Shown piece after piece: positions 5,969 through 26,804 of a stretch of 51,762 nucleotides of DNA. Every line of letters starts with the position of its first letter. Position 1 is the stretch's first letter. Under the pieces are notes generated by a model. It was given only the letters and a program-made list of their open reading frames with translations, was not told the DNA's origin and did not search any database. The stretch lies in assembly GCA_003152075.1 (NCBI GenBank), contig PLZG01000084.1, positions 1 through 51,762 of the forward strand, in the 5' to 3' direction. The translations under genes were made by a program, and so were the position numbers. The DNA is from a candidate division FCPU426 bacterium. GTDB taxonomy: Bacteria; Oederibacteriota; Muellerivitia; Muellerivitales; Muellerivitaceae.

Positions 5969-6079
5969 CCCTCACCCTATGCCAATTTTGGACATTAACC
6001 CAAAATGGTATTGGCATAATACCGACCACTTTAAAGATTTATAAATGGTCGGCATACCCTCTCCCGCAAGGGGCGAGGG
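5969..6079. repeat. 111-nt triple-hairpin intergenic element, copy 1
   Basis: About 90% identical to the copy at 20831-20941 (11 differences, no gaps). It folds as three successive hairpins: ATGCCAAT/ATTGGCAT with inner TTTTGG/CCAAAA; CCGACCA/TGGTCGG; and CCCTC...GAGGG closing on a GCAA loop. The flanking CCCTCACCCT and CCCTCTCCCGCAAGGGG parts resemble common REP-type repeats, while the two AT-rich hairpins look like a module placed inside such a repeat. It lies between the 60-residue gene and ubiX. Confidence 0.85.
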
Positions 6080-6115
6080 AACTTAAAAACCAACCACGAA
6101 TAACGACTTATTTGC

Positions 6116-6298
6116 TTAGCCTTGTTTCTTTTTATAAACGTTCAATCCGACCTTCTCATCCCGCTCCGGAACCGTAATATTCCCCTCGGTCGTAGCTACG
6201 ATGGTGGTCTTACCCGATGCAGAAGGGCCATATTCCTTTGATAAATCCACCTTGATAGTCAGGATGTTTCCTTCCACTTTCATTTCGACGTTTTTCAT
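6116..6298 (-). CDS. Small conserved-looking protein of unknown function
   Basis: A 60-residue cytoplasmic protein with no membrane helix or signal. It is a regular series of short strands: VEMKVEGNILTIKVDL, then SKEYGPSASGKTTIVATTEGN, then a final GLNVYKKK. I recall similar short proteins with the GPSxSGKTxxVATTxGN pattern in other bacteria, but no function; the SGKT is not a P-loop because no nucleotide-binding context surrounds it. Its ATG overlaps the ubiE stop (ATGA, 6295-6298), and AGGAG at the end of ubiE serves as its ribosome-binding site, so translation is coupled to UbiE. An earlier in-frame start lies within ubiE and is unlikely. Confidence 0.75.
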   Translation of the reverse strand: MKNVEMKVEGNILTIKVDLSKEYGPSASGKTTIVATTEGNITVPERDEKVGLNVYKKKQG

Positions 6299-6984
6299 TT
6301 TTTTACTCCTATGACGCTGACGGCGATTCCCATGGTTTGATTTATAACCGAGATATCCTTGAATCCACAACGCTCCATGAGTTGGCCGAATTCCTTCACC
6401 GAGGTGAATTGCTTGGCTGACTGCTGGAGATAATTATAGGCGCTCTTGTCCTTGGAAATGGCTCCTCCCCTCATTGGGAGAATGGTGCTGATATAAAAGC
6501 CGTAAGCCAGCTTGGTTAAAAAGCCCGTGGGCTTGAAAAACTCCAGGATCACGGCCTTTCCACCTGGCTTCAACATCCGGGCGATTTCTTTCAATCCCGC
6601 TTCCAGGGAATCCAGGTTGCGTACCCCGAAACCGCAGACCACCGCGTCGAAGGCCATGTCGTGGAATGGCAATTTAAGCGCGTCCGCCTGCAAATACTCG
6701 AAACCGTTCGAAGACCCCGCCTTTTCCTTGGCCAGTTGGAGCATGGGTTTGGCGAAATCGGCCATGACCACCTGGGCCGAGGGGATCTGTTCCTTCACCG
6801 CCAGGGCGAAATCACCCGTTCCGGCGCAAAGGTCCAAAACCCTTTGGGGCTTAAAACCATCCTTGAGCATCTGCTTGACCGAATCCTTCCGCCATTGGAT
6901 ATCCTTGTTGAAGGACAAGGCATGATTGGCCTGGTCATAGGTCGGGGCGATATTGGAAAACATGGTTTGAATTTGCTGGCTCAT
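6295..6984 (-). CDS. ubiE: Demethylmenaquinone methyltransferase, UbiE/MenG
   Basis: C-methylates demethylmenaquinone with SAM in the last step of menaquinone synthesis. Motif I is VLDLCAGTGDFA (residues 49-60), followed by QADALKLPF and the family signature FDAVVCGFGVRNL and KPGGKAVILEFFKP. The N-terminus MFSNIAPTYDQANHALSF is also typical. At 229 residues the length is normal. AAAGGTG lies a few bases before the ATG. It sits between ubiD and ubiX homologues in one orientation, as expected for the tail steps of the futalosine route. Confidence 0.95.
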   Translation of the reverse strand: MSQQIQTMFSNIAPTYDQANHALSFNKDIQWRKDSVKQMLKDGFKPQRVLDLCAGTGDFALAVKEQIPSAQVVMADFAKPMLQLAKEKAGSSNGFEYLQADALKLPFHDMAFDAVVCGFGVRNLDSLEAGLKEIARMLKPGGKAVILEFFKPTGFLTKLAYGFYISTILPMRGGAISKDKSAYNYLQQSAKQFTSVKEFGQLMERCGFKDISVINQTMGIAVSVIGVKK

Positions 6985-7008
6985 GAAACACCTTTCAAAT
7001 CAGATTGA

Positions 7009-7110
7009 ACCGCCACGAACGCCACGGTCGCCACGATGACAAAACACCTTAGATTTTCTTCAAAACCAAAGACTAAATTTTTTCGTGGCGCTCGTGGCGA
7101 GCGTAGCGGT
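7009..7110. repeat. Intergenic inverted element, GCCACG word family
   Basis: Arms at 7009-7036 and 7083-7110 are complementary at 23 of 28 positions and are each built of repeated CGCCACG words (for example CGCCACGAACGCCACGG on the left). An AT-rich 46-nt loop separates them. It fills the ubiE-ubiD spacer. The design, tandem words inverted around an AT-rich loop, matches the elements at 10075, 22082 and 25567 although the words differ. Confidence 0.7.
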
Positions 7111-7171
7111 AAAAATTATTTGATTAATCCGTATTTTTTCAAACATTTGAACTTTTACACTTTTTAACCAA

Positions 7172-8623
7172 CTATTTCATCAACCCATACTTCTTAAGGA
7201 TCGGTAGCACCTTTTCTTCGATCGCCTTATCCATATTTAACTCATCCGGCCATTCACGGTTGAAACCTTCCTCTTTCCATTTCTTTGTGGCATCAATCCC
7301 CATTTTTCCGCCCCAAGCCCACATGGGCGAGGTATGGTCCAGCACATCCAACGGCCCTTCGGTAATCACCACGTCCCGCTTGGCGTCCATGCAATTCCCC
7401 ACCCGCCACAGAACCTGGCCATAGTCATGAACATTGGTGTCTTTATCCACGATCACCAAAATCTTGTTCAACATCATCTGGCCCAGGCCCCAGAGGGCGA
7501 ACATGACCTTCCGGGCGTGCATGGGATATTGCTTGTCGATGGAAACAATGGCCAGATTATGGAAAATACCTTCCACGGGAAGTTCCATGTCCACCACTTC
7601 CGGGAGCACCTTCTGGAGAATGGGCAGGAACAACCGTTCGGTGGCCTTGCCCAGCCAGCCATCTTCCATGGGAGGCTTTCCAACAATGGTCGTTGGATAG
7701 ATGGGATTCTTACGGTGGGTGATACAAGTCACGTGGAATACAGGGTACTGGTCGGCCAAACTGTAATAGCCTGTATGGTCGCCAAAGGGTCCTTCCAGAC
7801 GCCTTTCCCCGGCCTCAACATAACCTTCCAAAACGAAATCGGCGTCGGCATTGACCATCAGGTCGACAGTCTTGCACTTCACCAATTCCACGGGCTTCTT
7901 GCGCAGGAACCCAGCGAATAATAATTCATCAATGCCTTCGGGTAGGGGCGCCGTAGCCGCGTAAGTCAGGGCCGGGTCGCCCCCCAGAGCTATCGCCACT
8001 TCCAATCGCTTCCCCATCTTTTCGGCCTTGCGGTGATGCCCCGCCCCGCCATGGTGGACCTGCCAATGCATCCCGGTGGTCTTGCCGTCGTAAACCTGCA
8101 TCCGGTACATGCCGATATTGCGCACCCCCGTTTCGGGGTCCTGGGTATATACAAGGGGAAAGGTAATAAACCGGCCGCCATCCTGGGGCCAACATTTCAA
8201 AACGGGCAGGGTCGAAAGGTCCGGATCTTTTTCCACCACTTCCTGGCAGGCGCCCTTGCCCACCTCAGTGGGTGGGAATTTGGCAATTTCGGCTAACTTG
8301 GGCAGGAACTTCAGCTTATCCACTAATCCCTTCGGCGGCTTCAAGTCCATCAATTCCTTGATGGCGACCGCGTGTTCTTCCAGGTTTTCCACCCCGAGCG
8401 CCCAGCTCATTCGCTGGTAGGAACCAACCGCGTTGATGAGCAAGGGATAGGGACTTCCCTTGGGCTTCTCGAATAAGAGAGCCTTGCCGCCATTGGGAGA
8501 CTTGGAAACCTTGTCGGCGATAGCGGTGATTTCCAGGACAGGATCGACCTCGTCCTTAATACGGACAAGCTCGCCCTTCTTTTCGAGGAACTCAACGAAT
8601 TCATTTAATGAGGAATAGGGCAT
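7172..8623 (-). CDS. ubiD: UbiD-family decarboxylase, probable menaquinone decarboxylase (MqnL)
   Basis: Prenylated-FMN-dependent decarboxylase; in this cluster it should remove the carboxylate from the prenylated dihydroxynaphthoate. The 483 residues show the UbiD hallmarks: NIGMYRMQVYDG and GMHWQVHHGG (about 169-193) for cofactor and metal binding, EGPFGDHTGYY (277-287) with the catalytic Glu/Arg/Glu region just before it, and YPTTIVGKPPMED. The neighbouring UbiX homologue supplies the cofactor. AAAGGA stands six bases before the ATG. The substrate is inferred from context; UbiD enzymes of ubiquinone or aromatic-acid metabolism share the same motifs. Confidence 0.9.
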   Translation of the reverse strand: MPYSSLNEFVEFLEKKGELVRIKDEVDPVLEITAIADKVSKSPNGGKALLFEKPKGSPYPLLINAVGSYQRMSWALGVENLEEHAVAIKELMDLKPPKGLVDKLKFLPKLAEIAKFPPTEVGKGACQEVVEKDPDLSTLPVLKCWPQDGGRFITFPLVYTQDPETGVRNIGMYRMQVYDGKTTGMHWQVHHGGAGHHRKAEKMGKRLEVAIALGGDPALTYAATAPLPEGIDELLFAGFLRKKPVELVKCKTVDLMVNADADFVLEGYVEAGERRLEGPFGDHTGYYSLADQYPVFHVTCITHRKNPIYPTTIVGKPPMEDGWLGKATERLFLPILQKVLPEVVDMELPVEGIFHNLAIVSIDKQYPMHARKVMFALWGLGQMMLNKILVIVDKDTNVHDYGQVLWRVGNCMDAKRDVVITEGPLDVLDHTSPMWAWGGKMGIDATKKWKEEGFNREWPDELNMDKAIEEKVLPILKKYGLMK

Positions 8624-8659
8624 CTGGTTTCCTTTTGGGGATTAAAAGAGGGGGGTATT

Positions 8660-9238
8660 CTACGACAGTTGTGAGGGAGCCTCAACCACGCGCTTCAGCT
8701 GGCGTTCGATGAGAAAAGCGCCCAATACCACCAAAAGCCCCCCGATCGCCGGGGCCCAAAACCAAATTTCCTTGAGAAGGTACATATTGAACCAGGCCAC
8801 GTAACTGGCGGCCCAACCCACCGTCATGAGAAACCTGGCCGACCGCTCCCCCAATCGGGGAGTCATCCAAGCCGTCGCGTAGCCTCCCATCGTGAAACTG
8901 ACCCCGAAAAGATGCAAGTAAGCCGTGTGCTTGATAATCATCTCGTGGTTATCCATTCCGGAAATGATCGAAAGCCACACAAAACACCAAAGGACGATCC
9001 AGAGGACGGAAAGGAAGGCGGTTCCATACCATAAATACATGAGCGTTCTTCCGCCTTTTTCCAGATGGGTAGATTGCACCGCAAGCATGGAGAGACCGCA
9101 CAAAACTGGAAAGCCGAACAAGATCAGGCTTCTCATCCACATAAGGGGGCCATCCTGGGGAGTCATTTCTAAAACTAACCCCGCTTCCAGGACCAATCCC
9201 AAGGCCCCAAGCCGTAAGAGAATTAGTGCCGTCCTCAT
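8660..9238 (-). CDS. Unknown multi-pass membrane protein
   Basis: A 192-residue integral-membrane protein with about five or six hydrophobic segments (roughly 4-22, 35-55, 65-95, 103-127, 135-155, 162-180). A few His residues (for example HTAYLHLFG) lie in or near helices, which can recall heme or quinone proteins, but no pattern is diagnostic and I do not recognise the family. Its ATG overlaps the truA stop by four bases (ATGA), and ubiD lies 36 bases downstream, so it is probably co-transcribed with both. A role in respiration is conceivable but not shown. Confidence 0.75.
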   Translation of the reverse strand: MRTALILLRLGALGLVLEAGLVLEMTPQDGPLMWMRSLILFGFPVLCGLSMLAVQSTHLEKGGRTLMYLWYGTAFLSVLWIVLWCFVWLSIISGMDNHEMIIKHTAYLHLFGVSFTMGGYATAWMTPRLGERSARFLMTVGWAASYVAWFNMYLLKEIWFWAPAIGGLLVVLGAFLIERQLKRVVEAPSQLS

Positions 9239-10023
9239 TCTCCCCCCTTGCTCCCCCAGTTTTTCACCAGCGGAAAAACCTTGGGATAAAAAACCTTCAC
9301 CAAAAAAAGGCCCGTGGGGGGCAGGGTGGGCCCCGCCTTCATGCGGTCCTTGGATTTCAAGATGGCCTTCATGTCCTCGGGCTTGAATTTTTTCAAACCC
9401 ACGTAAACCAAGGTGCCGCTGAGGATGCGCACCATTTGGTGCAGGAAGGACTCCCCCAGGTATTCCAGGACCAGGTTCGGCCCCCGCTTTTTGACCGTGA
9501 TCTTGATCAGGGTCCGCTTCGGATTCGCCCGCTTTCCCAGGCTCCCACGGAAAGCGGTAAAGTCGTGGGTCCCCACCAAATACTTCGCCGCCTTTCGCAT
9601 AGCCGCCAAATCAAGTGGCATTCGATGATGGTGATAGGTGTGCCTGTCAAAAACAGTGTAGTCGTGGCTATTGCGGATGATGTAGCGGTACATCCTGGCC
9701 TTGGCGTGGTAAGTCGCGTGAAAAGTGGAGGGAGCCTCAACCGCCTGGACGACTCGGATATCGTGGGGCAATTGGTGGTTCAGGACATTTTTTAGTTTGG
9801 GGGCTGATAACTTGGAGGAAGTGAGAAAATTAGCGGTTTGGCCCAGGGCATGGACTCCGGCGTCCGTTCGGCCCGCCACCAAAAGGTCAACGGGGTGACC
9901 GCTGATTTTGGAAAGCCTCTCTTCCAAAACACCCTGGAGGGTAATAGCTTGGGGTTGTTTTTGCCAACCCGAGTAAGCCGTGCCGTCGTACTCCAGGGTC
10001 AAACGGATGTTTCGATTCTTCAT
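9235..10023 (-). CDS. truA: tRNA pseudouridine(38-40) synthase TruA
   Basis: Converts uridines 38-40 of the tRNA anticodon arm to pseudouridine. The start at 10023 (MKNRNIRLTLEYDGTAYSGWQ begins the fold) is chosen because TruA proteins start here; the 16 codons before it run into the upstream spacer. Catalytic Asp54 lies in AGRTDAGVHA. FHATYHAKARMYRY and ESFLHQMVRIL are further signatures. At 262 residues the length is normal. It overlaps the next membrane gene by four bases. Confidence 0.95.
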   Translation of the reverse strand: MKNRNIRLTLEYDGTAYSGWQKQPQAITLQGVLEERLSKISGHPVDLLVAGRTDAGVHALGQTANFLTSSKLSAPKLKNVLNHQLPHDIRVVQAVEAPSTFHATYHAKARMYRYIIRNSHDYTVFDRHTYHHHRMPLDLAAMRKAAKYLVGTHDFTAFRGSLGKRANPKRTLIKITVKKRGPNLVLEYLGESFLHQMVRILSGTLVYVGLKKFKPEDMKAILKSKDRMKAGPTLPPTGLFLVKVFYPKVFPLVKNWGSKGGE

Positions 10024-10074
10024 AGGCTCAACTAGCCACGGATAAAAACGAATCCGAAAAAGAAAATCCAATTA

Positions 10075-10210
10075 GCCGCAGATGAACACGGATGAACACG
10101 GATGGGAAAAAAACAAAATAAAATATATTCTCTTTTAACCCGCCGCTTAAGCCCAACTTCTTTTCGCCTTTGAAATGTTGTATCCGTGTTAAACCGTGTT
10201 CATCTGTGGC
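10075..10210. repeat. Intergenic inverted element, GATGAACACG word family
   Basis: Arms at 10075-10103 and 10182-10210 are complementary at 26 of 29 positions. The left arm contains two tandem copies of GATGAACACG. The spacer between them (about 78 nt) is AT-rich at its start. Elements of this wording are widespread in environmental bacteria but have no agreed function known to me. The whole truA to DUF2723 spacer (10024-10278) contains this element and no convincing gene. Confidence 0.8.
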
Positions 10211-10278
10211 AAAAACATATTTTGTTTTTCGATTTTTGGAATCAGGAATCCAACTTTCCATCCATGGTTTCCGCTTAC

Positions 10279-12612
10279 TCACGTATGCTTGTTTCCCGGC
10301 GCCCCCTTCAATTGCTGGGCCTTGTTGAGCTCCTGCAGGCCGTCCAGGGCTTCCTTTTGCTGGGGGTTCATGCCCAGGCAGGCTCGGTAGGCCTGTTCCG
10401 CGTCGTTTATATTTCCCATCATCCGGAAAGCGTCGCCAATCTTGGCGTAAGCGTAAGGATTGTGGGAGTCCCGCCTCAAACTTTCCTGGTAATTGTTGAT
10501 AGCCGCCCCGGGATCGCCCAGGGCCAGGTAGGTCTCACCCAGCATCAGGTAAATGCGCATCAGGGTTTGGACCTGGCGGTACTTCAAGGCGTTGTTGAAG
10601 CTCCAAAGGGCGATGTCGGGCATTTTGTTCATGTAGGCGAAATAACCCGTGAAGTCGTGGCCGATACCGTAGGAATCCTTCATGACGTCCGTGTACTCGT
10701 CCCAATAACCACGGTCCGGCTCATCCATGTACCTTAAGCGGTAGGTGTCCCAAAAAACATTCAGCCGCGAGGAAGTAAAGGGGTAATTGAGATCCTTGGT
10801 CTTGATCATGCGCCAAAGGAACCCTTCCGGCAAGGATGGGTTCTTGTCCCTCATCCAGGGAGCGGTGAATATGTTGGTAAAGTAAAAGGATTTTTTATCC
10901 TTGATCCTTTCCGCGTAATCGCTTTCCGATTCGTCCTTCCCCTTCTCGCAGATCCCGTGCTGCTCAATCATATTTTGAACCACGGTCTCCGGGCGAATAT
11001 CTTGATCCACAGCTACTTTCAGGAAAGGCCAACGCGCAAAGAGCGGATTCCTGTACCAGTCATAAGGAATCAATTGCATGGTGAAGCTGACCACCCTGGG
11101 GCGCTTCCCTTCCACGTATTGCAGGTACCACAGGGGAAGAATGTCGATATCCCCGTTGCAAAGGATAACCCCGTTGTCGTTCACGGTCTTCAGCATGTTC
11201 ATGCCCTCGTCGTAGGAGCTGACGTAACGGCTTTGGTCGTTGCCCTCATAAACGATTTGATTAAATCCCGTTTTGGTGCTGGGGCTGTAATTCAGGATCA
11301 GGGGCATCAAGGCGAAACTCATGCAAAAAGCGCTGGCATAAAGGGGAGTTAACCGGTGGGACCATTCCCTGCTAGCCCATTCGCACAGCCCCGCGATTCC
11401 CGCCGCGGCGAACATCGAGCACATCAAGAAAACCGGGGAAAAAAAGTTATCCAAGGTCCATTGGTAGCCCTCCAAGGGGTTGTTGAAGAGGATGACTCCC
11501 ATAAAAACCCCGCCTCCGAAAAAAGCGATTCCCAAGGCGCTGGTCCATTGATTTTTCTTCCAAAGCCAGATAAATCCCCAAATCGCCAGGGCGAAAACGA
11601 CAAAGGTAAAGACATCGCCAAACTGGTGGTGGGCATGGATCCAAAACCGTTTGAGGTCCCGGTCAACGGTCGTCCAACCCCGCATATCACCAACCCCTTT
11701 ATAGCCTTCCCGAAGAACCGTTCCCCAAAGCCGTCCGAGGGTTTGCGGGTTCCACCAATTCACCAGCGGGTTTTGAGTGGCACGGATGGGCAAATACTCA
11801 TAAATCGAAACGGACAAAATCAAACAGGTCAGGGCCCGAACAATATTGAGGCTTCCAAAGGCCGAGAGGACCCCGGTTATGTTTTCCCATAAGTCAAAGG
11901 GTCTTAGCCTGAGAAGGTTGGTAATAAAGGATTTCATGGGAACCCGCTTTTGACTGGACATGAAAAGCCAAAGGTAGGCGGGCGCCATGACCAGCTGGTT
12001 GGGCCAATGGTGGGCCAGGCTTAACCCGTAAAGAAACCCCATCAAGAGGAACGATTTAATGAACCAACCGTTTTCCCGCATCTTAAAAAACAGAAACAGC
12101 ATGCAGGCGGATTGAAGGGTGTTCAGGGTGTAAATCCCGCCCTTGGCGCCGCAGGCCTGGAACCAATGTTGATAGGAAAAGGCGAAGGTCAGCGCCCCGA
12201 AAAGGGCCGGAATTTCCCAAATCCATGGGCCGGGCTTCTGGTTTTCCGTTACCGATTCCCCAGGTTGGGTTGGAGCTGCCTGCCCTGAGCTTGCTTGTGG
12301 TGAGCTAGTCGAACCAGCCGATGAATCGAAAACCCCTTTGATTAACATTTTGATCACCCAATAAATCACAACCACAGCCACCGTAGCCGTCAACATGGAG
12401 CAAAAGGTCACCCTCATCATGGGCTCACCCAAGGGAAGGAGACAATTGACACGCCCCCAAAGTGTGTGGAGAGGATAGCCGGGTGAGTGGCTGATGGTAA
12501 GAAGGTCGCAAACCATGATGGTTTCGCCTGAGTCGTTGATATTGAAGCTGGCGCAACAGGTGCGCAAATAAAAGAAGAAAGTGAAGAAAAATAATAAAGC
12601 GGGAATGAACAT
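10279..12612 (-). CDS. DUF2723-type membrane protein with C-terminal TPR
   Basis: A large polytopic protein of about 777 residues. The N-terminal region has the DUF2723 pattern: an extracytoplasmic NDSGE loop, then SHSPGYPLHTLWGRV and a series of hydrophobic helices to about residue 460. Family members are GT-C-fold glycosyltransferases or relatives, some acting as O-mannosyltransferases; acceptor and donor are unknown here. The C-terminal 90 residues form two tetratricopeptide repeats (LMLGETYLALGDPGAAINNY, then YAKIGDAFRMMGN). The start at 12612 has AGGGG upstream; earlier in-frame starts fall in the palindrome at 12641-12668. Start uncertain by up to 16 codons. Confidence 0.8.
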   Translation of the reverse strand: MFIPALLFFFTFFFYLRTCCASFNINDSGETIMVCDLLTISHSPGYPLHTLWGRVNCLLPLGEPMMRVTFCSMLTATVAVVVIYWVIKMLIKGVFDSSAGSTSSPQASSGQAAPTQPGESVTENQKPGPWIWEIPALFGALTFAFSYQHWFQACGAKGGIYTLNTLQSACMLFLFFKMRENGWFIKSFLLMGFLYGLSLAHHWPNQLVMAPAYLWLFMSSQKRVPMKSFITNLLRLRPFDLWENITGVLSAFGSLNIVRALTCLILSVSIYEYLPIRATQNPLVNWWNPQTLGRLWGTVLREGYKGVGDMRGWTTVDRDLKRFWIHAHHQFGDVFTFVVFALAIWGFIWLWKKNQWTSALGIAFFGGGVFMGVILFNNPLEGYQWTLDNFFSPVFLMCSMFAAAGIAGLCEWASREWSHRLTPLYASAFCMSFALMPLILNYSPSTKTGFNQIVYEGNDQSRYVSSYDEGMNMLKTVNDNGVILCNGDIDILPLWYLQYVEGKRPRVVSFTMQLIPYDWYRNPLFARWPFLKVAVDQDIRPETVVQNMIEQHGICEKGKDESESDYAERIKDKKSFYFTNIFTAPWMRDKNPSLPEGFLWRMIKTKDLNYPFTSSRLNVFWDTYRLRYMDEPDRGYWDEYTDVMKDSYGIGHDFTGYFAYMNKMPDIALWSFNNALKYRQVQTLMRIYLMLGETYLALGDPGAAINNYQESLRRDSHNPYAYAKIGDAFRMMGNINDAEQAYRACLGMNPQQKEALDGLQELNKAQQLKGAPGNKHT

Positions 12613-12640
12613 TCGGGCAATACCCCTGAGCAAGATGTTT

Positions 12641-12668
12641 GTAGGGGCGTGATTTATCACGCCCCTAC
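12641..12668. repeat. Perfect palindrome (TAGGGGCG family), short form
   Basis: A perfect 13-bp stem with a two-base TT centre: GTAGGGGCGTGAT and its complement. It lies in the tpx to DUF2723 spacer and matches one half of the longer element at 2835-2887. No T-tract follows on either strand, so a classical terminator is not supported. Confidence 0.85.
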
Positions 12669-12684
12669 GGGCCTGGTTTACCTT

Positions 12685-13197
12685 TTAAGCGTCGGCTTTA
12701 GCCGCCGCCAATGCCTTGTCATAATTGGGTTCGGTCGTCACTTCCTTGACGTACTCCACGTGCTTAACCTTCCCGTCTTTACCCACCACGAAAAGAGAGC
12801 GGGCTTCCAGCCTCAATTCCTTGATATGGGTCCCATAGGCGTCTCCAAAGGACATTTCCCGGTGGTCCGAGAGTGAGGCGATCTTGATGTTTTCGGCGCC
12901 GCAAAAGCGCTTCTGAGCGAAGGGTAAATCCGCGGAAATAGTTAGTATCTCCACGTTGGCGGGCAATTTCGAGGCCTCGTCGTTGAACCGCTTGGTCTGG
13001 ATAGCGCAAACGCCCGTATCCAGCGACGGGGCAACCGAAAGGATGAGGGTCTTTCCTTTATAGTTGTCCAAGCTCACTTCTTCCAATCCGTTAGTCAAAA
13101 CCTTGAAATTGGGAGCCTTATCCCCCACCTTGATCTCCGGTCCGATTAAAGTCATCGGCCCGCCCTTGAAAGTAATCACTCCCTTGCGCTCCTGCAT
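12685..13197 (-). CDS. tpx: Thiol peroxidase Tpx (2-Cys peroxiredoxin)
   Basis: Reduces hydrogen peroxide and alkyl hydroperoxides using thioredoxin. The peroxidatic Cys is Cys64 in SLDTGVCAIQTKRFN and the resolving Cys is Cys99 in KRFCGAENI, the arrangement of atypical 2-Cys Tpx enzymes. Total length 170 residues is normal. The N-terminus has the usual GGPMTLIGPEIKVGDKAPNF, with a slightly longer lead (MQERKG). An inverted AT-rich element separates it from asd upstream, so it may have its own promoter, but none was identified. Confidence 0.95.
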   Translation of the reverse strand: MQERKGVITFKGGPMTLIGPEIKVGDKAPNFKVLTNGLEEVSLDNYKGKTLILSVAPSLDTGVCAIQTKRFNDEASKLPANVEILTISADLPFAQKRFCGAENIKIASLSDHREMSFGDAYGTHIKELRLEARSLFVVGKDGKVKHVEYVKEVTTEPNYDKALAAAKADA

Positions 13198-13236
13198 ACC
13201 AACCTCCTTGAAGAAATTTTGAATCCTGAATTCTCA

Positions 13237-13293: not shown

Positions 13294-13309
13294 CTCATAA
13301 TTGCCGTTA

Positions 13310-14389
13310 TCAGATGTGGCCTTTGTGGACGAGGTATTCCGCCACCAGCATGCCGCCCTTGGCGGCGCCCATCTTGGTGTTGTGCGACACCAGCATGTAC
13401 TTCATCCCGTTCGGCAAAGCATGGTCCGCGCGCACGCGGCCCACCGAAGTCAACATCCCGCCTTCCCTGTCCCTGTCTAGACGTGGCTGGGGCCGGAAAG
13501 GATCGTCGGTCACGTCAATCAAATGGGGGGGGCAGGAAGGAAACTTGAGCTTGATAAACTCTTTTCCATGGTCCCGCAAAACCTTTTTTACCTGATCCAC
13601 GGTAGCGTGTTTTTTCATGGAAACGTAGACTGCTTCCGTGTGGCCTTCCAGTACCGCAACCCGGGTACAGGTGGCGGAAACCGGGAAGGGCGCCGGGGCG
13701 ACCCTATTCCCAACGATGGACCCCAAGATTTTCTGGGTCTCCATCTCTACTTTTTCCTCTTCTTTTGGGATGTAAGGAATGACGTTATCGATGATGTCCA
13801 ATCCGATAACGCCAGGTGACCTTCCCGCCCCGGAGCAGGCTTGCATGGAAGTCATGATGACTTGTAAAACCCCGAAAGCCTCATGAATGGGCTTCAAGGT
13901 CATGGCCAGCCCCATGGTGGTGCAGTTGGGAACCGGCGTCACAAAACCTTTCCAACCGCGTTTTTTCTTTTGAATCGCGATGAGCTTATCGTGCTCCATG
14001 TTGACGCCAGGAATGAAGATGGGAACATCCGGCTCATAACGAAAAGCGGAGGCTGTCGAAACAACGGGAGTGGTTTTGGCGTACCGGGGTTCCAATTCCT
14101 TGGCGGCGTCCGATTCCACGGCGGTGAAAACCAAATCCACCTTGGAGGCGTCCAGGTGGGCGGCGTCTTGCACTTTCAATTTGGCGTAAGCCGGGTCCAG
14201 GGGTTCCTGGCAGTACCAGCGGAAGGCCCCATGGGCGTCGGTGATGGCGTCTTTATAGAGCTTCCCGGCCGAGCGCTCGGAAGCGGCCAAGGCCGTGACC
14301 TCAAAATAGGGGTGCCTAGGGAGGGATGCCAAAAATTGCTGGCCCGCCACTCCCGTGGCGCCAATAACAGCGACTTTTTTCTTTTTCAT
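13310..14389 (-). CDS. asd: Aspartate-semialdehyde dehydrogenase
   Basis: Reduces aspartyl phosphate to aspartate semialdehyde for lysine, threonine and methionine synthesis. The NADP loop is GATGVAG (residues 10-16) and the nucleophilic Cys is Cys156 in PVPNCTTMG. The sequence (LVFTAVESDAAKELEP, QACSGAGRSPG) and 359-residue length fit the archaeal/fungal-like ASADH subgroup better than the short E. coli type. The start at 14389 has GAGGA seven bases upstream; a further upstream in-frame start at 14446 lacks support. A 280-base spacer upstream suggests an own promoter. Confidence 0.93.
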   Translation of the reverse strand: MKKKKVAVIGATGVAGQQFLASLPRHPYFEVTALAASERSAGKLYKDAITDAHGAFRWYCQEPLDPAYAKLKVQDAAHLDASKVDLVFTAVESDAAKELEPRYAKTTPVVSTASAFRYEPDVPIFIPGVNMEHDKLIAIQKKKRGWKGFVTPVPNCTTMGLAMTLKPIHEAFGVLQVIMTSMQACSGAGRSPGVIGLDIIDNVIPYIPKEEEKVEMETQKILGSIVGNRVAPAPFPVSATCTRVAVLEGHTEAVYVSMKKHATVDQVKKVLRDHGKEFIKLKFPSCPPHLIDVTDDPFRPQPRLDRDREGGMLTSVGRVRADHALPNGMKYMLVSHNTKMGAAKGGMLVAEYLVHKGHI

Positions 14390-14669
14390 GTCAAAATCCT
14401 CAAGAATTTTCCCAAAACCAGGTCCAGGGAGGAGAAAGGATAGCATATTAGGGGGATGGAGAAAATGCTTTTACGGCCCAAATCCTAAGGTTTCGGGCCG
14501 GTTTGACCCCTTACTCGATTAAGGTCCTGCGGCTTAAGAACGGGAAATGATTTAACTCCAAAAGGATTGGGAAATGGGGGAGAGGGAGCGGAGGTGATCT
14601 TGGCCGTAATTCTAAAGTACAAATTTTAGCCTGGCCCCTTTTTTGTACTTGTGATTTTAATTTTCCGTT
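14390..14669. other. Spacer upstream of asd, no gene seen
   Basis: Contains a GGCCC/GGGCC hairpin (about 14474-14498) and a 9-bp inverted repeat AAGTACAAA/TTTGTACTT (about 14615-14650), the latter just past the lipoprotein stop on the minus strand. It could end transcription of the FecR-barrel-lipoprotein unit, but it has a long loop and no clean T-tract. No open frame with a ribosome-binding site was found. Confidence 0.4.
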
Positions 14670-15782
14670 TTAGCCCCCAATGGGAGTCGGCGTGGGCGTC
14701 ACCGTGGGGGTCGGCGTGGGGTTCAGGTTGCAATTGACCCTGCCACTGGTCGTTTCGTCGAATTTCATGTAGTTCAAGTTCTCGTTGTTATAAATGAAAA
14801 TAAAACTATTCAGGGAGCCGCTTGTCGTCAGGGCGCAGTCGTAGGAAGGCGGGTTAAATTGCATCCAGGCGCGGGCGTTGGTGGAAGAAATAGTCACCAC
14901 GAAGATATCGCCTCCGGCGATGGTCGACGCGGCCGAACCCACCGCCGCTGCCTTCGCCAGCAGGGTGTTGGGGTAATAAACCGCGCCAGCGGGAATCAGC
15001 GGAAAATTCACCAGGTCGCCGTTGCCCAGGTAGGTGAAGGTGGCAGCGGGGGGCGGCGGACCCGCTCCCAAGTAAGGTGGCGCCGCCATGTAAGTCGACA
15101 GGGTGGTCACGTCATATAAAGCCTGCAGGTCCCCCGTCCCGCCGAATATCGAAGCCGTCACAGCCCCGGAATCAAAGGAAAAAAGATCCTCCCAACTTCC
15201 AGTGTAGGTCGTTACGCCTCCGCCAAGGTTGAAATCACAGTTCGTGGCATCGGTCAGATTGGCCTGGTAACAGGTATATTCCTGGTAACCGATATCTTCC
15301 ATGTTCAAGGTGAAGGGGGTGGTTCCTTGGACATTGACCATACCGGCGCCGGCGAATTCCGGAATGGCGGTCAAACCCGGCAAGACCAGTTTCGACGCGG
15401 GTTTAAACGAACCCGCGCTGGGGTTATAGGTATAAAAGCATTCGCCCGAAACCAGCCAGTTCCCGGCCTTGGGAAGGTTGATAAAGAAAGTCCCCACCTG
15501 GGACCCGCTGTTAAAGGGGATGACACCCGTGACCGGGGCTTCCCCATCCGTGACTAGGTAATATTCAAAGGCGCCCGTGCTGGAATCGGGCACCGAGGCT
15601 TTAGAGGCTGCTTTCCCCGATCTGGCTGGGGCACGGAAGTTCAGGATTTTTGGGGGGATCACCAGCTTCAACACCGCCGAGTTTACGGGGATCACGGGGT
15701 GAGCCGCCTTATCGCAACCCGCCATCAACCCCGTCAAGGTAAAAGCCCCGGCCGCCAGCGATAAAAATATTTTTTTCACCAT
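14670..15782 (-). CDS. Putative lipoprotein with Pro/Thr-rich tail
   Basis: A 370-residue exported protein with a lipobox: signal helix, then TGLMAGC with Cys23 as the lipidation site. Asp follows at position 24, which in enteric bacteria would favour inner-membrane retention, but the rule may not hold here. Mid-region repeats small residues and beta-rich segments with a few Cys (TCYQANLTDATNCDFN) and no recognised domain. The C-terminus is a PTPTPTVTPTPTP linker ending in GG, as in surface-exposed proteins. Its start overlaps the barrel gene stop by seven bases, so the two are translationally coupled. Confidence 0.75.
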   Translation of the reverse strand: MVKKIFLSLAAGAFTLTGLMAGCDKAAHPVIPVNSAVLKLVIPPKILNFRAPARSGKAASKASVPDSSTGAFEYYLVTDGEAPVTGVIPFNSGSQVGTFFINLPKAGNWLVSGECFYTYNPSAGSFKPASKLVLPGLTAIPEFAGAGMVNVQGTTPFTLNMEDIGYQEYTCYQANLTDATNCDFNLGGGVTTYTGSWEDLFSFDSGAVTASIFGGTGDLQALYDVTTLSTYMAAPPYLGAGPPPPAATFTYLGNGDLVNFPLIPAGAVYYPNTLLAKAAAVGSAASTIAGGDIFVVTISSTNARAWMQFNPPSYDCALTTSGSLNSFIFIYNNENLNYMKFDETTSGRVNCNLNPTPTPTVTPTPTPIGG

Positions 15783-16954
15783 TTGAGCCCCACATTCGTT
15801 CCTAAAGTGATCCGCTGGTACGTAATCGTTTGGTTGTTAGCCCCCGCGTTGTTAGCGGCGATGTTGTGATACAGCCCCGCGAGGTTCCAGAAGGTTTCGG
15901 GGGAAAGCTGGAAGGTGATGCTTTGCTCGGCTCCCCACAGGTTTCCGCCGCCCACATACTCCGGCTGCGCCCCCAGGGGCGGTGTTAGGGGAAAGCCATT
16001 GGGCTGGATCCAGTCCCAGACCAGCCCGGTTTCCAGGACAACCCCCGGGCCCAACGAATAGCCCATCATGGGGTGGATTTCAAAACGGTCCCCGAAGAAG
16101 TGCCCCGGGTCCTGCGCGAGGGCGTTGGAACCCGTGGTTTGGGCCGTGGAACCCGCGTTGTAAAAGCTATAGGAGACGTTCACCACCAGCTTGTCCTTCC
16201 CCATATGGCTGATCCATTGGGAAGTGAGGATGGTGCCCTGCCCCTGGGTAAAATCCTGGCCCGCGTTGGGATAGGTGGATTCCAAAGGAAAGGTGTGCAC
16301 CGCCCGGAAACCCCAGTTGTCCGCGCCCGACATGCGGAAACCCAGGGTGGCGAGAACCACCACGTTATCGCCGGGGCTATAGGTTCCCTCCGTGGAAAGG
16401 CCCGTGTCGTAAACGCTCGTGGACATGAACCCGGCGCCGAGGCCGTATTCGGAGTTGGGATCGGTTAAGGACAGGGAATAAAAAAGGTTTCCGCCCCATC
16501 CCCCGCCGTGGTAAAAGCTCGGCTCGAAAATGAAGGGGATGGCCCCGGTTTGTTCCGCGACCTCCCAGTGGTTGTCACCCGTGGGAAAGTTGAGTTTCCC
16601 TTGCAGGTTGGACCGCATGGAACCTCCCATGTCCAGGCCCCAGTTGACCCCCAACGTGGTGTCGGAAAATTGGCTGGATTTATACTCCGAGCCAACGATG
16701 CCCGCGCCCGCGTTCGCGTCTTCCACGTAATCCCCCGCGACAAAAGCGGTGTTCAAGGAAAGGGTCAGATTGGGCGAGGAAAAATAATAACTCAAGGGTA
16801 TCCGTTGTTCCGTCCCATGAAACAGTGAGTTACTGCTCCAGGAATTCAGGACATAGCCGAGTTGAAGTTCCTGTTGTTCGGCCCTGGCCGGGCCAAGGGA
16901 TAAAAACAGTCCCATCGCTAAAACCAGGCCGATCCCGACTTTGTTGAGGCTCAT
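15776..16954 (-). CDS. Probable outer-membrane beta-barrel protein
   Basis: A 392-residue protein with a clear signal peptide (GLVLAMGLFLSLGPARA, then EQQ). The mature part alternates hydrophobic and polar residues with many Gly, Tyr, Phe and Trp, and ends LGTNVGLKW, a final strand with a terminal aromatic as recognised by BAM. It resembles transporter-like barrels of unknown ligand (the phenol MetA-pathway/DUF3187-like group is possible, not confirmed). The start at 16954 rather than 16975 is preferred because the signal peptide begins there, with AAGGA about ten bases upstream. It lies between the FecR-domain gene and the lipoprotein gene. Confidence 0.75.
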   Translation of the reverse strand: MSLNKVGIGLVLAMGLFLSLGPARAEQQELQLGYVLNSWSSNSLFHGTEQRIPLSYYFSSPNLTLSLNTAFVAGDYVEDANAGAGIVGSEYKSSQFSDTTLGVNWGLDMGGSMRSNLQGKLNFPTGDNHWEVAEQTGAIPFIFEPSFYHGGGWGGNLFYSLSLTDPNSEYGLGAGFMSTSVYDTGLSTEGTYSPGDNVVVLATLGFRMSGADNWGFRAVHTFPLESTYPNAGQDFTQGQGTILTSQWISHMGKDKLVVNVSYSFYNAGSTAQTTGSNALAQDPGHFFGDRFEIHPMMGYSLGPGVVLETGLVWDWIQPNGFPLTPPLGAQPEYVGGGNLWGAEQSITFQLSPETFWNLAGLYHNIAANNAGANNQTITYQRITLGTNVGLKW

Positions 16955-16993
16955 GTAATTCCGTTCCTTAATCATAAATAGATGGGTCCCGCG

Positions 16994-17860
16994 CTAGGGA
17001 ACCGGGAGATATTGGGGAAACCCCAATAGCAAACCCAGGATGTGTTGGTTATCAACCAACGCGGGGCCGTTGCCCCCAATTTCGCCCGTGATCCCGTTGA
17101 TCCCGCCGGGGAGATCGGTCAGCGGGTTGTTGAAATCATCCGAGCCCGTCCCGTTGAACCCATAAAAAGGGTTGGAAGCGATGAAACCAAGCCCCGTGTT
17201 TCCGGTAGAAGGCGGTGGTGGAAAGGTCCAGGTTCCGTTGAGGAAGGTTCCCTGCTGTCCCCCGTGGAAATCATGGTTCTTCCCATCCGCGGTGGTCCAA
17301 ACCGTCCCTTCCGTCACCACCACGTCCACCTTTCCCGTAACGGGATCGTAAAAGACTGAAAATTCAGTTCCCCTCACTCCGCAAACCACACCCCCGGCTT
17401 CCACCTCAAAGGAGGACTTGGAGGAAGCTAATTTTCGGACGGTGGCAAACAGCTGGCCAAACACTAATTTGAACTTGAGCATTTTGTCGGTCAGGGAAGG
17501 CTTCTGCAGGCCCGTCACCACCACACTGCTATCGGGTTTAATGTCCAGGGTGGAACCGTCGAATAGTTTCAAGCTGGCGGTGGCGTCCTTGGCGGTCGTC
17601 ACGGTCGAGCCCTCGGGAACGGTGGAGGTCATTTTGGCCTTCCGGGAGCGACCTTTTATATTCAGGATGGTCACCTTACCGGTCAGCGCGGCGAAGGTGG
17701 CCTCAAGGGAGGCGTTGGCATTGGTAACCGGCGCTGGCGCTGTCGTCGGCACTGTCGTAGGTATTGTCGTCGGCTCTGCCGTCGGCGCTGGCGCCGCGGC
17801 CCACGCCCCTAAGGCTCCCGTCAGGAAAAGTACCGGCAACGAGGGAATAAATCGTTTCAT
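16994..17860 (-). CDS. Exported FecR-domain protein
   Basis: A 288-residue protein with a signal peptide (FLTGALGAWAAA), a Thr/Pro-rich linker (about 25-48) and a FecR domain (about 52-205). FecR hallmarks are VPEGSTVTTAKDATASLKLFDGS, then LKFKLVFGQLFATVRKL and GGVVCGVRGTEFSVFYD. It has no cytoplasmic anti-sigma domain or transmembrane helix, so it is not a classical sigma regulator; free FecR-domain proteins occur in envelope contexts. The tail is Gly/Asn-rich with a PPPP stretch. AAAAGG precedes the ATG. It heads a three-gene unit with the barrel and lipoprotein. Confidence 0.8.
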   Translation of the reverse strand: MKRFIPSLPVLFLTGALGAWAAAPAPTAEPTTIPTTVPTTAPAPVTNANASLEATFAALTGKVTILNIKGRSRKAKMTSTVPEGSTVTTAKDATASLKLFDGSTLDIKPDSSVVVTGLQKPSLTDKMLKFKLVFGQLFATVRKLASSKSSFEVEAGGVVCGVRGTEFSVFYDPVTGKVDVVVTEGTVWTTADGKNHDFHGGQQGTFLNGTWTFPPPPSTGNTGLGFIASNPFYGFNGTGSDDFNNPLTDLPGGINGITGEIGGNGPALVDNQHILGLLLGFPQYLPVP

Positions 17861-18143
17861 ATAAACCTTTTAATCCAGGAGTTTTAAGGAGGGCAGAACC
17901 CGCCCAAGTAGGACGGGGGCATTTTATAACAGAAAGGACGCGATATAAAAAGATCAGTAACAGATTTAAAAGGGGAAAGTTTCGTGGTTTTCGCCCAGGA
18001 AATCCGAAAGAAAGAGGCCTAAACTTGGTTGTCCACTAAATCGGGGGAAATCCAGTATTCAACTGGGCGATCGCCCTGGTACTGATAGGCGGTGCCTATG
18101 TGGGAATCTCACATTTCAGTCGGCAGTCCACAGTCGACAGCCA
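17861..18143. other. Divergent spacer containing a lone CAGTCGACAG-type repeat arm
   Basis: Should hold the FecR-gene promoter. At 18117-18142 is a GTCGGCAGTCCACAGTCGAC stretch that matches the wording of the inverted element at 22082-22155, but the opposite arm is missing. At 18061-18120 the first forward frame encodes a transmembrane-like stretch (NWAIALVLIGGAYVGI) without a start codon; it is discussed with the next gene. Confidence 0.4.
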
Positions 18144-18521
18144 ATGGTTCAAAACAAACCGACAGCTATTGAATCAGCAATGGTTCCAAGCGCCTCTGCG
18201 CCGAGTTCTCAAACTGTGGCACAAGCCTCGAACGCCTCTGGGCCGAGGCTACCTGCCGAGGCACACGAATTGAGTGTACCAATTCCCAAAGAAGGAATTG
18301 GTACCGACTCTACCGCATCGAAAAGTTCAGCTTCGGTTACGTCCGGTGGACCGTCAAAGGCTTCCACTGATTCATCCCCCAAGAAAGACGCCAACTCCCC
18401 TACGGAGTTGGCACACCCAAAGCTTACGCCTCAGGCTAATACTTCGGCGCAGGGGGATCCCGTCGCCAAATTCGTTGGGGACGCGGCGGGCGCGGCCGCC
18501 AAAAAGGCTTTCGGGTTTTAA
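18144..18521 (+). CDS. Doubtful Ser/Ala/Pro-rich protein, possibly a frameshifted remnant
   Basis: One of two plus-strand candidates. It encodes 125 residues, mostly Ser, Ala, Pro, Thr and Lys, ending DPVAKFVGDAAGAAAKKAFGF; no domain is recognised. No good ribosome-binding site precedes the ATG, which directly abuts a repeat arm. Just upstream, in another frame, a membrane-helix-like stretch (18052-18120) would fit as the missing N-terminal anchor if one base change in frame occurred. Two perfect inverted repeats lie inside the frame (18276-18304, GTACCAATTCC arms; 18390-18412, GCCAACTCC arms), so the sequence may be built from palindromic elements. It could be a broken gene or no gene. Confidence 0.35.
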   Translation: MVQNKPTAIESAMVPSASAPSSQTVAQASNASGPRLPAEAHELSVPIPKEGIGTDSTASKSSASVTSGGPSKASTDSSPKKDANSPTELAHPKLTPQANTSAQGDPVAKFVGDAAGAAAKKAFGF

Positions 18522-18601
18522 GCTCTAAAACATTTCACCCTAGAGTCATAGAAGGCGCCAAGAAAAGCCATAAAGATTGGATTAAAACGCAGTCATCCCG
18601 C

Positions 18602-19186
18602 TTATTTTCGGTCAATCCATTTTTCAACGGGAGTAGGCAGGTAAGCTTCCATGGCCGTAAGGAGCTGGTCGGGATTTTGGCCGACCAATATCATTTGACG
18701 GTGTTCTTTTTTCAAAAAACGCTGGTCGACGGCGTGGTCCAGGAAATCCATGAATTTGTCAAAATAACCCCGGACGTTCAGGAAACCCACCGGCTTGGAA
18801 TGAAGGCCCAATTGCGCCCAGGTCAATATCTCCATGGCTTCTTCCAAGGTGCCCAAGCCCCCGGGCATGGCGATAAATCCGTCCGACAATTGGAACATCT
18901 TGGTTTTTCTTTCGTGCATGGTCGGAACCACGTGAAGTTCCTTGAGGCCCTTATGCCCGACCTTATGATTGAGCTCCTCGGTGATGATGCCGATCACTTC
19001 GCCCCCGTGGCTCAAAACAGCGTCGGCGGTTTCCCCCATCAATCCGACATTCGCCCCCCCATAGACCAACGACATTCCCCGCTGGGCCAGTTTCCTTCCA
19101 AGTTCCCGGGATGCCTCAACGTACTCAGGGTGCGCGCCCGGACTGGAGCCGCAATTGACGCAGATTTTCTTTAGTTTTCCAGGCAT
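18602..19186 (-). CDS. LOG-family nucleotide 5'-monophosphate phosphoribohydrolase
   Basis: A 194-residue Rossmann-type protein of the LOG (TIGR00730, formerly lysine decarboxylase-like) family. The catalytic signature is MPGGLGTLEE (107-116) with the Arg/Lys of HERKTKM (91-97). GGANVGLMG (43-51) is the nucleotide-binding loop. Such enzymes split ribose 5-phosphate from AMP, other NMPs or cytokinin nucleotides; the bacterial physiological substrate is often unknown. AAGGA lies nine bases before the ATG. It is isolated between surface genes and a structured spacer, so context gives no hint of substrate. Confidence 0.9.
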   Translation of the reverse strand: MPGKLKKICVNCGSSPGAHPEYVEASRELGRKLAQRGMSLVYGGANVGLMGETADAVLSHGGEVIGIITEELNHKVGHKGLKELHVVPTMHERKTKMFQLSDGFIAMPGGLGTLEEAMEILTWAQLGLHSKPVGFLNVRGYFDKFMDFLDHAVDQRFLKKEHRQMILVGQNPDQLLTAMEAYLPTPVEKWIDRK

Positions 19187-19278
19187 TTAATTTATTCCTT
19201 CCCCCAGGTTCGGGCTTCGATCAGTCTTTTTGCCCCCGTTAGTTCCCTACCACGGGCGATTTTAAACCTAATTCTCCG

Positions 19279-19442
19279 CCGGGGTGAGCCTATCTTCACC
19301 CGGACGCCCTTAACAGGGTGTTAAAAAATGTTTTTCACCCTGTCAACAGCCATGGGTTAGGAGCGAATCACCTTTACCCTCTTGATTTGGAGAGGTGATT
19401 CGCGACGAAGATAGAAAAAAGTCCGCACTAAGGACTTTTTTT
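19279..19442 (+). ncRNA. Candidate structured RNA ending in an intrinsic terminator
   Basis: Read on the plus strand: a closing stem CTATCTTC (19290-19297) with GAAGATAG (19407-19414) encloses two perfect hairpins, ACAGGGTG/CACCCTGT (19313-19343) and GCGAATCACCT/AGGTGATTCGC (19363-19403). The closing stem is followed at once by a terminator hairpin with a seven-T tract. A competing hairpin CCGGGGTG/CACCCGG (19279-19303) would hide the left closing strand, so two folds are possible. No Rfam family was recognised and no promoter is clear. On the minus strand the same bases would form a long leader for the LOG gene, which is the main alternative. Confidence 0.4.
19415..19442 (+). terminator. Intrinsic terminator, probably bidirectional
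   Basis: AAAAAAGTCC, loop GCACTAA, GGAC and then seven T on the plus strand; the six A on the left give a U-tract in the other direction. On the minus strand it could serve the Thr/Pro-repeat gene upstream at 19758-20777; on the plus strand it would end the RNA candidate. Confidence 0.7.
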
Positions 19443-19757
19443 AACCTCCTGTTAAAGCGCGGTTCTTTCCGCTTTTCCCCACGAACAATACCCTGCAATG
19501 TTCGTTTTAATCCAAAAAAATGAAATATTTTTTGAGAGGGTTAAAAAAATTAGGGCCGAATGCGCCGATTTGAAGGAGCGTGAGACAAAGGATTTATTTA
19601 AACTTGGGTTGCTTCCTCATTAGTGAACGCCTAGCCCCATTTCACCATAAAACTAATTAGGAAATGGGATGATCCCGCATCACCTTTAAATATTTCCAAA
19701 AGGAAATGCGGGGTATCGGCGTTCATTCCTCGCGATGACATCTATAAAATTTTTTAA
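19443..19757. other. Spacer downstream of the Thr/Pro-repeat gene, hairpins only
   Basis: No gene was seen. It contains ACGAACA/TGTTCGT (19481-19505) followed by a short T run, a weak terminator candidate on the plus strand, and a cruciform-like element at 19624-19725 listed separately. Bases 19506-19620 show an A-rich stretch without recognisable structure. Confidence 0.4.
19624..19725. repeat. Three-way-junction inverted element
   Basis: Outer 8-bp arms TGAACGCC (19624-19631) and GGCGTTCA (19718-19725) enclose two hairpins: CCCATTTC/GAAATGGG (19636-19668) and CCCGCAT/ATGCGGG (19674-19712) with an inner CCTTT/AAAGG. This two-hairpins-in-a-stem plan is similar to the region 26693-26794, but the sequences differ. 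Confidence 0.6.
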
Positions 19758-20777
19758 TTAGGGTATCTCGGTTTTACCGCTGGCTTCGTACTTCAGCTTC
19801 CCAACCTTGATGTCGATAAAACAGAGGTAGTTCCCCGGCGGCATGGGGCGCTTCTCCTCGTCCTTCCCGTCCCAATTCAATTCATGGGTGTCCGCGGATA
19901 AATCATCGGGGCTTTCATCCTTGTCAAAATGGAATTCCCTGACAAGGCGGAAACCGCTGGTATAAATTTTGAGGAAAACCTCGTCCGCCGGGGTGGTGGT
20001 TCCCCAGGTAAATTTCATTTGGCCCTGGTCGTTGGGTTTGGGCGAAACCAAAAATTTGAAAACGCCCGGAGTGGAAGTCTTAGTCGGGGTAAAGGTGGGT
20101 GTTGAGGTAAAGGTTTTGGTGATGGTAAATGTAGAGGTTGGGGTAAAGGTAAAAGTCGCGCTGGGGGTTAAAGTGCCGGTGGGGGTAGGAGTGAATGTGT
20201 CAGTGGTGGTCGGAGTGTTGGTTACGGTAAAAGTATTCGTGAGGGTTAAAGTCAGGGTGTTCGTAAAGGTCGGGGTAGGCGTCTTGGAGGGGGTGAGTGT
20301 CCCCGTGGGGGTAAAGGTCGGGGTGAAGGTCTGGGTAATAGTAAAGGTATTGGTGGGAATTGGCGTTAGGGTTATGGTGAAAGTATTGGTAAGGGTTAGG
20401 GTTTTGGTGGGGGTAAAGGTTGAGGTATCCGTCCGGGTAGGAGTTGGTGTTTTGGTGGGGATGAGGGTTCCCCTTGGGGTGCTTGTGAATGTTTTAGTAG
20501 GCGTGAATGTCCGGGTGTTGGTAAAGGTTCGGGTAGGGGTATGGGTGGGGATGAGGGTGCCGGTCGGAGTGTAAGTAAAAGTAGGGGTTGGAGAATCAGT
20601 TGGGGTGGCGGTTATAGTGGATGTAAAGGTGGGAAGATTAACAGCGGGTGTGAAAGTGAGAATGTTTGAAAGTGTAAAGGTTGGAGTCACAACTGGTGTC
20701 AATGTCTGGGCCATAACGGGCGAAATAACCAAGCCCATAAAAAGGATCAAATATAAAAACCTAGTTTTATTCATCAT
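19758..20777 (-). CDS. Secreted Thr/Pro-repeat protein with C-terminal FlgD-like Ig domain
   Basis: A 339-residue exported protein. A signal peptide (FLYLILFMGLVISPVMAQ) is followed by about 210 residues dominated by Thr, Pro, Phe and Ser in a loose repeat of TFTPT-type units with periodic PTGTL(I/T)P blocks. From about residue 240 a compact domain appears (FKFLVSPKPNDQGQMKFTWG...ELNWDGKDEEKRPMPPGNY), the pattern of FlgD-type Ig or T9SS-like C-terminal modules. The linker is probably extended and may be O-glycosylated. ATG at 20777 is preferred over an upstream TTG. Plausibly a cell-surface stalked protein. Confidence 0.75.
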   Translation of the reverse strand: MMNKTRFLYLILFMGLVISPVMAQTLTPVVTPTFTLSNILTFTPAVNLPTFTSTITATPTDSPTPTFTYTPTGTLIPTHTPTRTFTNTRTFTPTKTFTSTPRGTLIPTKTPTPTRTDTSTFTPTKTLTLTNTFTITLTPIPTNTFTITQTFTPTFTPTGTLTPSKTPTPTFTNTLTLTLTNTFTVTNTPTTTDTFTPTPTGTLTPSATFTFTPTSTFTITKTFTSTPTFTPTKTSTPGVFKFLVSPKPNDQGQMKFTWGTTTPADEVFLKIYTSGFRLVREFHFDKDESPDDLSADTHELNWDGKDEEKRPMPPGNYLCFIDIKVGKLKYEASGKTEIP

Positions 20778-20830
20778 TTCACACTTCAATCTTGTTGCAG
20801 TTTGATGTCATTGCGAAGAGTGTCTTTCAC

Positions 20831-20941
20831 CCCTCACCCTATGCCAATTTTGGATATTCATCCAAAATGACATTGGCATAATACCGCCCACCTATAAGAT
20901 TTATTAATGGGCGGCATACCCTCTCCCGCAAGGGGCGAGGG
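20831..20941. repeat. 111-nt triple-hairpin intergenic element, copy 2
   Basis: Same length and order of hairpins as the copy at 5969-6079. The second hairpin reads CCGCCCA/TGGGCGG here against CCGACCA/TGGTCGG there: both members of one pair changed, keeping pairing. The first hairpin is longer (TTTTGGAT/ATCCAAAA). It lies between leuB and the Thr/Pro-repeat gene; no gene is present in 20778-20993. Confidence 0.85.
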
Positions 20942-25555: not shown

Positions 25556-25566
25556 TTAAACACCTC

Positions 25567-25660: not shown

Positions 25661-25667
25661 CCTGCCT

Positions 25668-26794: not shown

Positions 26795-26804
26795 AAAATT
26801 CCAA

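Follow-up and report, generated by a model that had tools for sequence, protein, structure and literature searches.

Palindrome-associated transposable elements (PATEs) are minimal elements of the IS200/IS605 type, and the Correia/NEMIS, ERIC and RUP repeats are TA-inserting bacterial miniature inverted-repeat transposable elements (MITEs) with one long terminal inverted repeat. REPINs are doublets of repetitive extragenic palindromic (REP) sequences that form hairpins and are thought to be mobilised by REP-associated tyrosine transposases (RAYTs); two alternative folds are discussed for them, a long hairpin or a two-hairpin 'clover' (Bertels and Rainey 2011, PMC3116915). The subject here is a two-hairpin module, probably mobile, found in a 51,762-nt contig of a candidate division FCPU426 bacterium (PLZG01000084.1), the whole of which is referred to as the window. 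Its own genome, G000 (4.1 Mb, 114 contigs), was compared within a set of eight genomes of the same GTDB family, labelled G000 to G007. The nearest known systems are REPINs and IS200/IS605-type or TA-type miniature elements; the module works like them and departs from them in several defining features.

Like a REPIN, the module consists of two inverted palindromic units, has a similar total length, is non-autonomous and occurs in tens of copies; its hairpins 1 and 2 share inverted TGCCGA/TCGGTA ends with conserved pairing, and it too has two alternative folds. Unlike REPINs, its own genome lacks a RAYT (Y1) gene, no Y1 gene was found next to any copy and no units flank the Y1 genes in the 17 loci that were read. 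The GTAG/GGAG-type tetranucleotide at the hairpin foot is absent, the feet being TG/TA-TGCC and CATG/CATA, the module has duplicated TA/TG ends and is inserted in other repeats and in start codons, and its covariation supports only the two-hairpin form. With IS200/IS605 elements and PATEs it shares a subterminal hairpin at each end, the lack of coding sequence, probable mobilisation in trans and covariation within each fold-back hairpin rather than from end to end, but it is only ~80 nt long, no parent insertion sequence with the same ends and a Y1 gene was found, and the hairpins of the family's multicopy IS200 are different. It resembles the TA-inserting MITEs in belonging to the ~100-nt class, in lying in intergenic regions near genes and in having TA at both ends, although its ends do not covary together, most copies use TG and the module also inserts in start codons. 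TA of the IS630-type MITEs is found in the REP-nested copies, whereas nearly all others have TG, and the terminal inverted repeats are not evolving together (2/14 pairs).

A two-hairpin module nested in a REP-like repeat

The preliminary description reported two triple-hairpin elements in the window, aligning without gaps at about 90% identity. The alignment stands (90% over 112 nt, gap-free), and hairpins 1 and 2 do form the mobile unit, but the third hairpin is part of a REP-like host repeat. The parts are as follows.

5969–5977, plus strand: left part of the REP-like host repeat by copy A, CCCTCACCC
5978–6056, plus strand: two-hairpin module, copy A, with TA..TA ends (hairpin 1 at 5978–6018, hairpin 2 at 6022–6052)
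6057–6079, plus strand: right part of the REP-like host repeat by copy A, the hairpin CCCTCTCCCGCAAGGGGCGAGGG, which is the 'third hairpin'
20831–20839, plus strand: left part of the REP-like host repeat by copy B, CCCTCACCC
20840–20918, plus strand: two-hairpin module, copy B, with TA..TA ends (hairpin 1 at 20840–20880, hairpin 2 at 20884–20914)
20919–20941, plus strand: right part of the REP-like host repeat by copy B, a hairpin
24714–24750, plus strand: module-free REP-like unit, a diverged empty frame

Judged from sequence, the repeat is a module of ~79 nt (77–93 nt across copies) within a REP-like host repeat; its two hairpin units, TGCCGA..TCGGTA and TACCGA..TCGGCA, are inverted relative to each other. 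Folding z-scores, calculated for the window copies against 200 shuffles, are -6.3 for module A and -5.5 for module B, and no shuffle (0/200) was as good. The own genome contains ten full REP-nested copies, each of which has its hairpins flanked by CCCTCACCC-like sequence on one side and CCCTCTCCC-like sequence on the other. That the module is nested in this frame had been suggested from the unit at 24714–24750, which is indeed module-free but whose TA is also altered. The suggestion is supported by 19 further frames, all of which (19/19) read CCCTCACCC-TA-CCCTCTCCCGCAAGGGGCGAGGG with nothing between and vary by single bases in the left part only. Occupied frames carry TA on either side, with rare single-base changes. 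Since TA stands on both sides of occupied frames and nothing lies between the parts of empty ones, the mobile unit is therefore the stretch of ~79 nt with its two hairpins.

Empty sites have the dinucleotide of the insertion point a single time and occupied sites have it at both ends; it is TA in the REP-nested copies of the own genus and TG in nearly all others. The repeated dinucleotide may be a true target duplication, or one of the two may have come with the element and the other from the target. Orthologous spacers, where empty REP sites had been anticipated, were compared for copy A in G006 and for copy B in G001 and G006; the module is missing as expected, but so is the REP frame, and these spacers record the gain or loss of the whole unit rather than the order of nesting.

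Covariation within the hairpins

A covariance model, R1, was built from the ten own-genome copies and a second model, R2, was used for the wider comparisons below. The exchange of an A-T for a C-G pair that had been noted between copies A and B is real, the position being paired in all ten copies (A-T in seven, C-G in two, G-C in one), and two further pairs are changed on both sides among the ten. When 44 distinct copies are aligned, changes on both sides are seen in 13 of 18 within-hairpin pairs, amounting to 49 cells, which none of 500 shuffles reaches; by comparison, pairing the outer arms as a terminal inverted repeat gives 2 of 14, which is the shuffle level. The proposed comparison of paired with unpaired stem changes also favours folding, with 95.5% of cells paired in the ten copies and 96% in the 44. 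Among 91 distinct modules the left arm of stem 1 takes the form of 27 different 8-mers, and at least seven of eight Watson-Crick pairs are formed in 77 of the 91 modules, as opposed to none with shuffled arms. As changes within hairpins are paired and those from end to end are not, each hairpin therefore evolves as its own fold-back, and the terminal-inverted-repeat model is ruled out by the pair counts (2/14 compared with 13/18).

We read the compensated pairs as a sign that the DNA adopts a folded form, though template switching may have contributed to them. The preliminary description had attributed the single pair then visible to a folded nucleic acid, which is supported by the conserved fold-back hairpins across the 44 copies. 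Covariation of this kind provides a sequence-only argument that miniature elements are recognised as folded single strands and not through double-strand terminal repeats.

Proposed mode of movement

The module is best explained as a non-autonomous miniature mobile element, REPIN-like or IS200/IS605-like, that enters repeats and start codons, and we would give this reading a probability of roughly 0.85. It is proposed that the module moves as single-stranded DNA and that a transposase supplied in trans recognises its two hairpins. This would most likely be a Y1 (HUH) enzyme, which is preferred because the conserved feature is single-strand hairpins. Insertion into a start codon would be survived because the outward end of the element carries a GGAAGG sequence resembling a Shine-Dalgarno (SD) motif ~5 nt before CATG, by which the gene would regain both a start codon and a ribosome-binding site.

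Several points weigh against this interpretation. Every genome is a draft, and most or all are metagenome-assembled. No transposase has been linked to the element: the Y1_Tnp domain (PF01797) is absent from G000, where a RAYT had been expected, and from G006, both of which are rich in copies, though it is present in the other six of the eight genomes (G001, G002, G003, G004, G005 and G007). R2 has no match in the 17 Y1-gene loci that were read, which represent part of the Y1 genes of the family, and the multicopy IS200 of G002 and G007 was rejected as the parent, its ends differing from those of the module. One copy of the most abundant TG subfamily has the long hairpin as its minimum-energy fold, the two units being related in inverted orientation; even so, comparison of the copies supports only the two-hairpin form. 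G.T and A.C mismatches are about equally frequent (11 and 12, with one fixed G.T position left out) and there is therefore no sign of selection on an RNA strand. Finally, the compensatory changes could partly stem from template switching at palindromes rather than from selection.

The last point can be extended to all compensated pairs, which would then result from replication template switching that repairs imperfect palindromes and owe nothing to selection on the folded form. This is possible but doubtful. The copy G000:C5:26985, in which the bulged hairpin 1 has become a perfect palindrome through the gain of 5 nt and a paired change from C-G to T-A, bears the signature of quasipalindrome correction, and the mismatch types are symmetric. 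However, unrelated loop sequence has not become paired, both hairpins retain one non-Watson-Crick step at an identical position, and there are intermediates with a single mismatch. Template switching would in any case be compatible with mobility of the element.

A dinucleotide-core recombinase could also act in place of Y1. An enzyme with a dinucleotide core or one that duplicates its target (IS110-like DEDD, IS607-like serine or IS630/Tc1-like DDE at TA) would account for the TA or TG that flanks the element on both sides and stands once in the empty site, and IS110 elements favour REP sequences. It is nevertheless the less likely mover, as the two ends lack the mutual covariation expected of double-strand terminal repeats, and IS630-type elements use TA only whereas most copies here have TG. 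IS110 was rejected on distribution, since its domain PF01548 occurs in only two of the eight family genomes (G002 and G003) and not in the own genome; IS607-like and IS630-like genes were not searched for.

A pattern search for the right hairpin at a longer, autonomous element returned almost only the module itself, the extras being one truncated copy, one degenerate copy and one single-hairpin variant. The contig ends of G002 and G007 carry a multicopy IS200/IS605-like element with the hairpins CCTCGCGGCTTGCCGCGAGG and CCCCGCGGCTTGCCGCGGGG, which breaks the assemblies.

Insertions at start codons

Across the family 98 copies were analysed, which is an incomplete census. About 17 of these lie exactly at gene start codons, ending in the ATG (GTG in one case) or, for two of the copies, starting at that of an opposite-strand gene; ~81/98 are not at start codons. 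Pfam matches were obtained for ten proteins downstream of start-codon copies, nine of them above the curated cut-off, and the genes hit include nuoJ, dnaE, purL and phoH-like, ArsC-like, AMP-binding and ABC permease genes. The start-codon copies of the own genome are at dnaE (G000:C81) and at a DUF4340 gene (G000:C41).

Seven of the genes were compared with their orthologues, and the element-free ones have a clean start codon at the same point. The empty nuoJ site of G006 reads GGGAGCCAAGGC-ATGACC, an ATGA stop/start overlap; nuoJ is occupied in G002 and G007, the former reading GGGAGCCCAGGCA|TGAGCC..GGC-ATGACC, and the upstream stop codon is kept because the element begins with TGA. Empty and occupied forms are likewise found for the ArsC-like gene (GGAGGAACC-ATG in G004 and GGGAGGAACCA|TG in G006), the phoH-like gene (GGAGGGCAAACCCAC-GTG in G001 and GGAGGGCAAACCCGTA|TG in G006) and the AMP-binding gene (ACATTGAGGGCATCG-ATG in G002 and ACATTGAGGGCCAA|TG in G006), and purL and the ABC permease gene also have clean element-free orthologues. 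In the empty dnaE of G001, G002, G004 and G007, TATAAT lies ~6 bases before the ATG, a leaderless-type start, and in G000, G005 and G006 the element sits between the two. One element subtype (TGTACC/GGCAC) is patchy across genera at the dnaE start codon, a pattern left either by insertion more than once or by exact loss.

The upstream signal mostly keeps a normal distance from the left boundary of the element, which fits entry into the start codon. The element would have entered A|TG with duplication of TG and rebuilt ...GGAAGG-n5-CATG at its end. The gene-facing end usually has a GGAAGG-like SD ~5 nt ahead of the new ATG. In start-codon copies the anti-SD energy averages -4.9 kcal/mol at this end and -4.4 in the native flank, compared with -0.6 in the flanks of other copies. 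The new start codons are probably used for translation. By a rough estimate start codons may constitute ~5% of survivable TG sites, and outside recognised repeats 17 of 32 copies are at start codons, which could be due either to targeting or to survival.

It is tentatively suggested that the ends of the element have evolved into portable sites of translation initiation (SD plus CATG) that are targeted to start codons or adapted to survive in them, including ATGA overlaps inside operons. If so, the element would re-wire the translation of house-keeping genes as it moves, and related species would gain and lose it exactly at one and the same codon. Insertion into a start codon is normally destructive, yet in at least seven gene families here some orthologues are cleanly empty and others occupied, and the genes that carry the element, dnaE, purL and nuoJ among them, look essential or central. 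This would provide a testable case of a mobile element with its own translation start that is able to live inside operons. A limited search of the open-access literature found no start-codon-inserting miniature element.

The start-codon copies might instead be functional, conserved cis-regulatory RNA leaders, riboswitch-like or protein-binding, some copies of which then spread, the repeat-nested ones being strays. In keeping with such a leader, the dnaE leaders of three genera keep their stems while the loops diverge, and the SD lies in hairpin 2, which adjoins the ATG. The explanation is very improbable, since the great majority of copies (~81/98) are away from start codons, the genes have unrelated functions, the element is missing from orthologues in sister species and the native SD or -10 box is at normal spacing from the left boundary, as for an insertion. 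Furthermore, G.U is not in excess over A.C mismatches, and four loci gave no Rfam match at E <= 1.

Copies A and B belong to the TA-end subfamily nested in REP-like repeats and have neither the ATG nor the SD. Some start-codon copies in G006 and G003 have an extra hairpin 2 directly upstream, forming short tandem arrays of hairpin units.

Distribution and target sites

R1 detected diverged homologues within the same GTDB family, and R2 has matches in all eight family genomes and none in 37 other genomes of the phylum. A coarser scan of 376 genomes outside the family detected no module, and a plasmid search for it found nothing. The element is so far confined to one family of uncultured soil bacteria.

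In the sister genus, TG-ended modules occur in CTTCGTG/CTTGGTG repeats, GCCACAGATG repeats, TTTTTGAACC palindromes and GTCATTGCGA repeats, and overall the module family occupies at least five repeat families other than the REP frame, in addition to start codons. Within the same genomes, the CTTCGTG kind also occurs in exact empty form, with a single TG. In relatives an exact empty site reads ACTTTGTGTCCTTTGTGTACTTCGTGGTGA, as compared with ...TCCTT-TG[module]TG-TGTA.. when occupied. Strongly folded DNA was rejected as the target, the joined flanks giving weak z-scores (class medians -2.2 to +0.3), and the targeting claim is limited to the use of recurrent repeats and does not extend to hairpin targets. 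That REP frame and module are one ancient composite repeat, with empty frames produced by deletion, would fit the finding that every REP-nested copy of the own genus is at the same frame point, but is scarcely credible when the same module family is present in the other repeat families and in start codons, each empty frame has exactly one TA and occupied frames are not alike in their right-hand REP parts.

A single-hairpin variant, CATGCCGATC..GGTCGGCATG, lies within a CGCAAAG.CGC repeat at G002:C91:61900-63000.

Further features of the window

Beyond the two copies of the preliminary description the window holds one and probably two more, scored by R2 E-value and by folding.

26713–26795, minus strand: third module copy, with TG..TG ends (R2 E-value 8e-6, folding z-score -3.1)
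19633–19715, minus strand: probable diverged fourth module copy (R2 E-value 0.023), within the palindrome TGAACGCC..GGCGTTCA

The third copy is of the subtype TGCCCCACATT..GTGGGGC / GCCACTT..AAGTGGT and is flanked by the genes for the acetolactate synthase small subunit and ketol-acid reductoisomerase, as identified by Pfam. Both minus-strand copies differ in stem subtype from copies A and B.

Palindromic repeats of the GCAGATGAACACGG and CACCAAG kinds are found at 10051–10234 and 25554–25673; repeats of these kinds host the module in related genomes. The 27-mer TTTGTAGGGGCGTGATTTATCACGCCC forms a perfect inverted pair at 2864–2890 and 12638–12664; the ArsC-like gene in G000:C20 has a similar sequence upstream of it.

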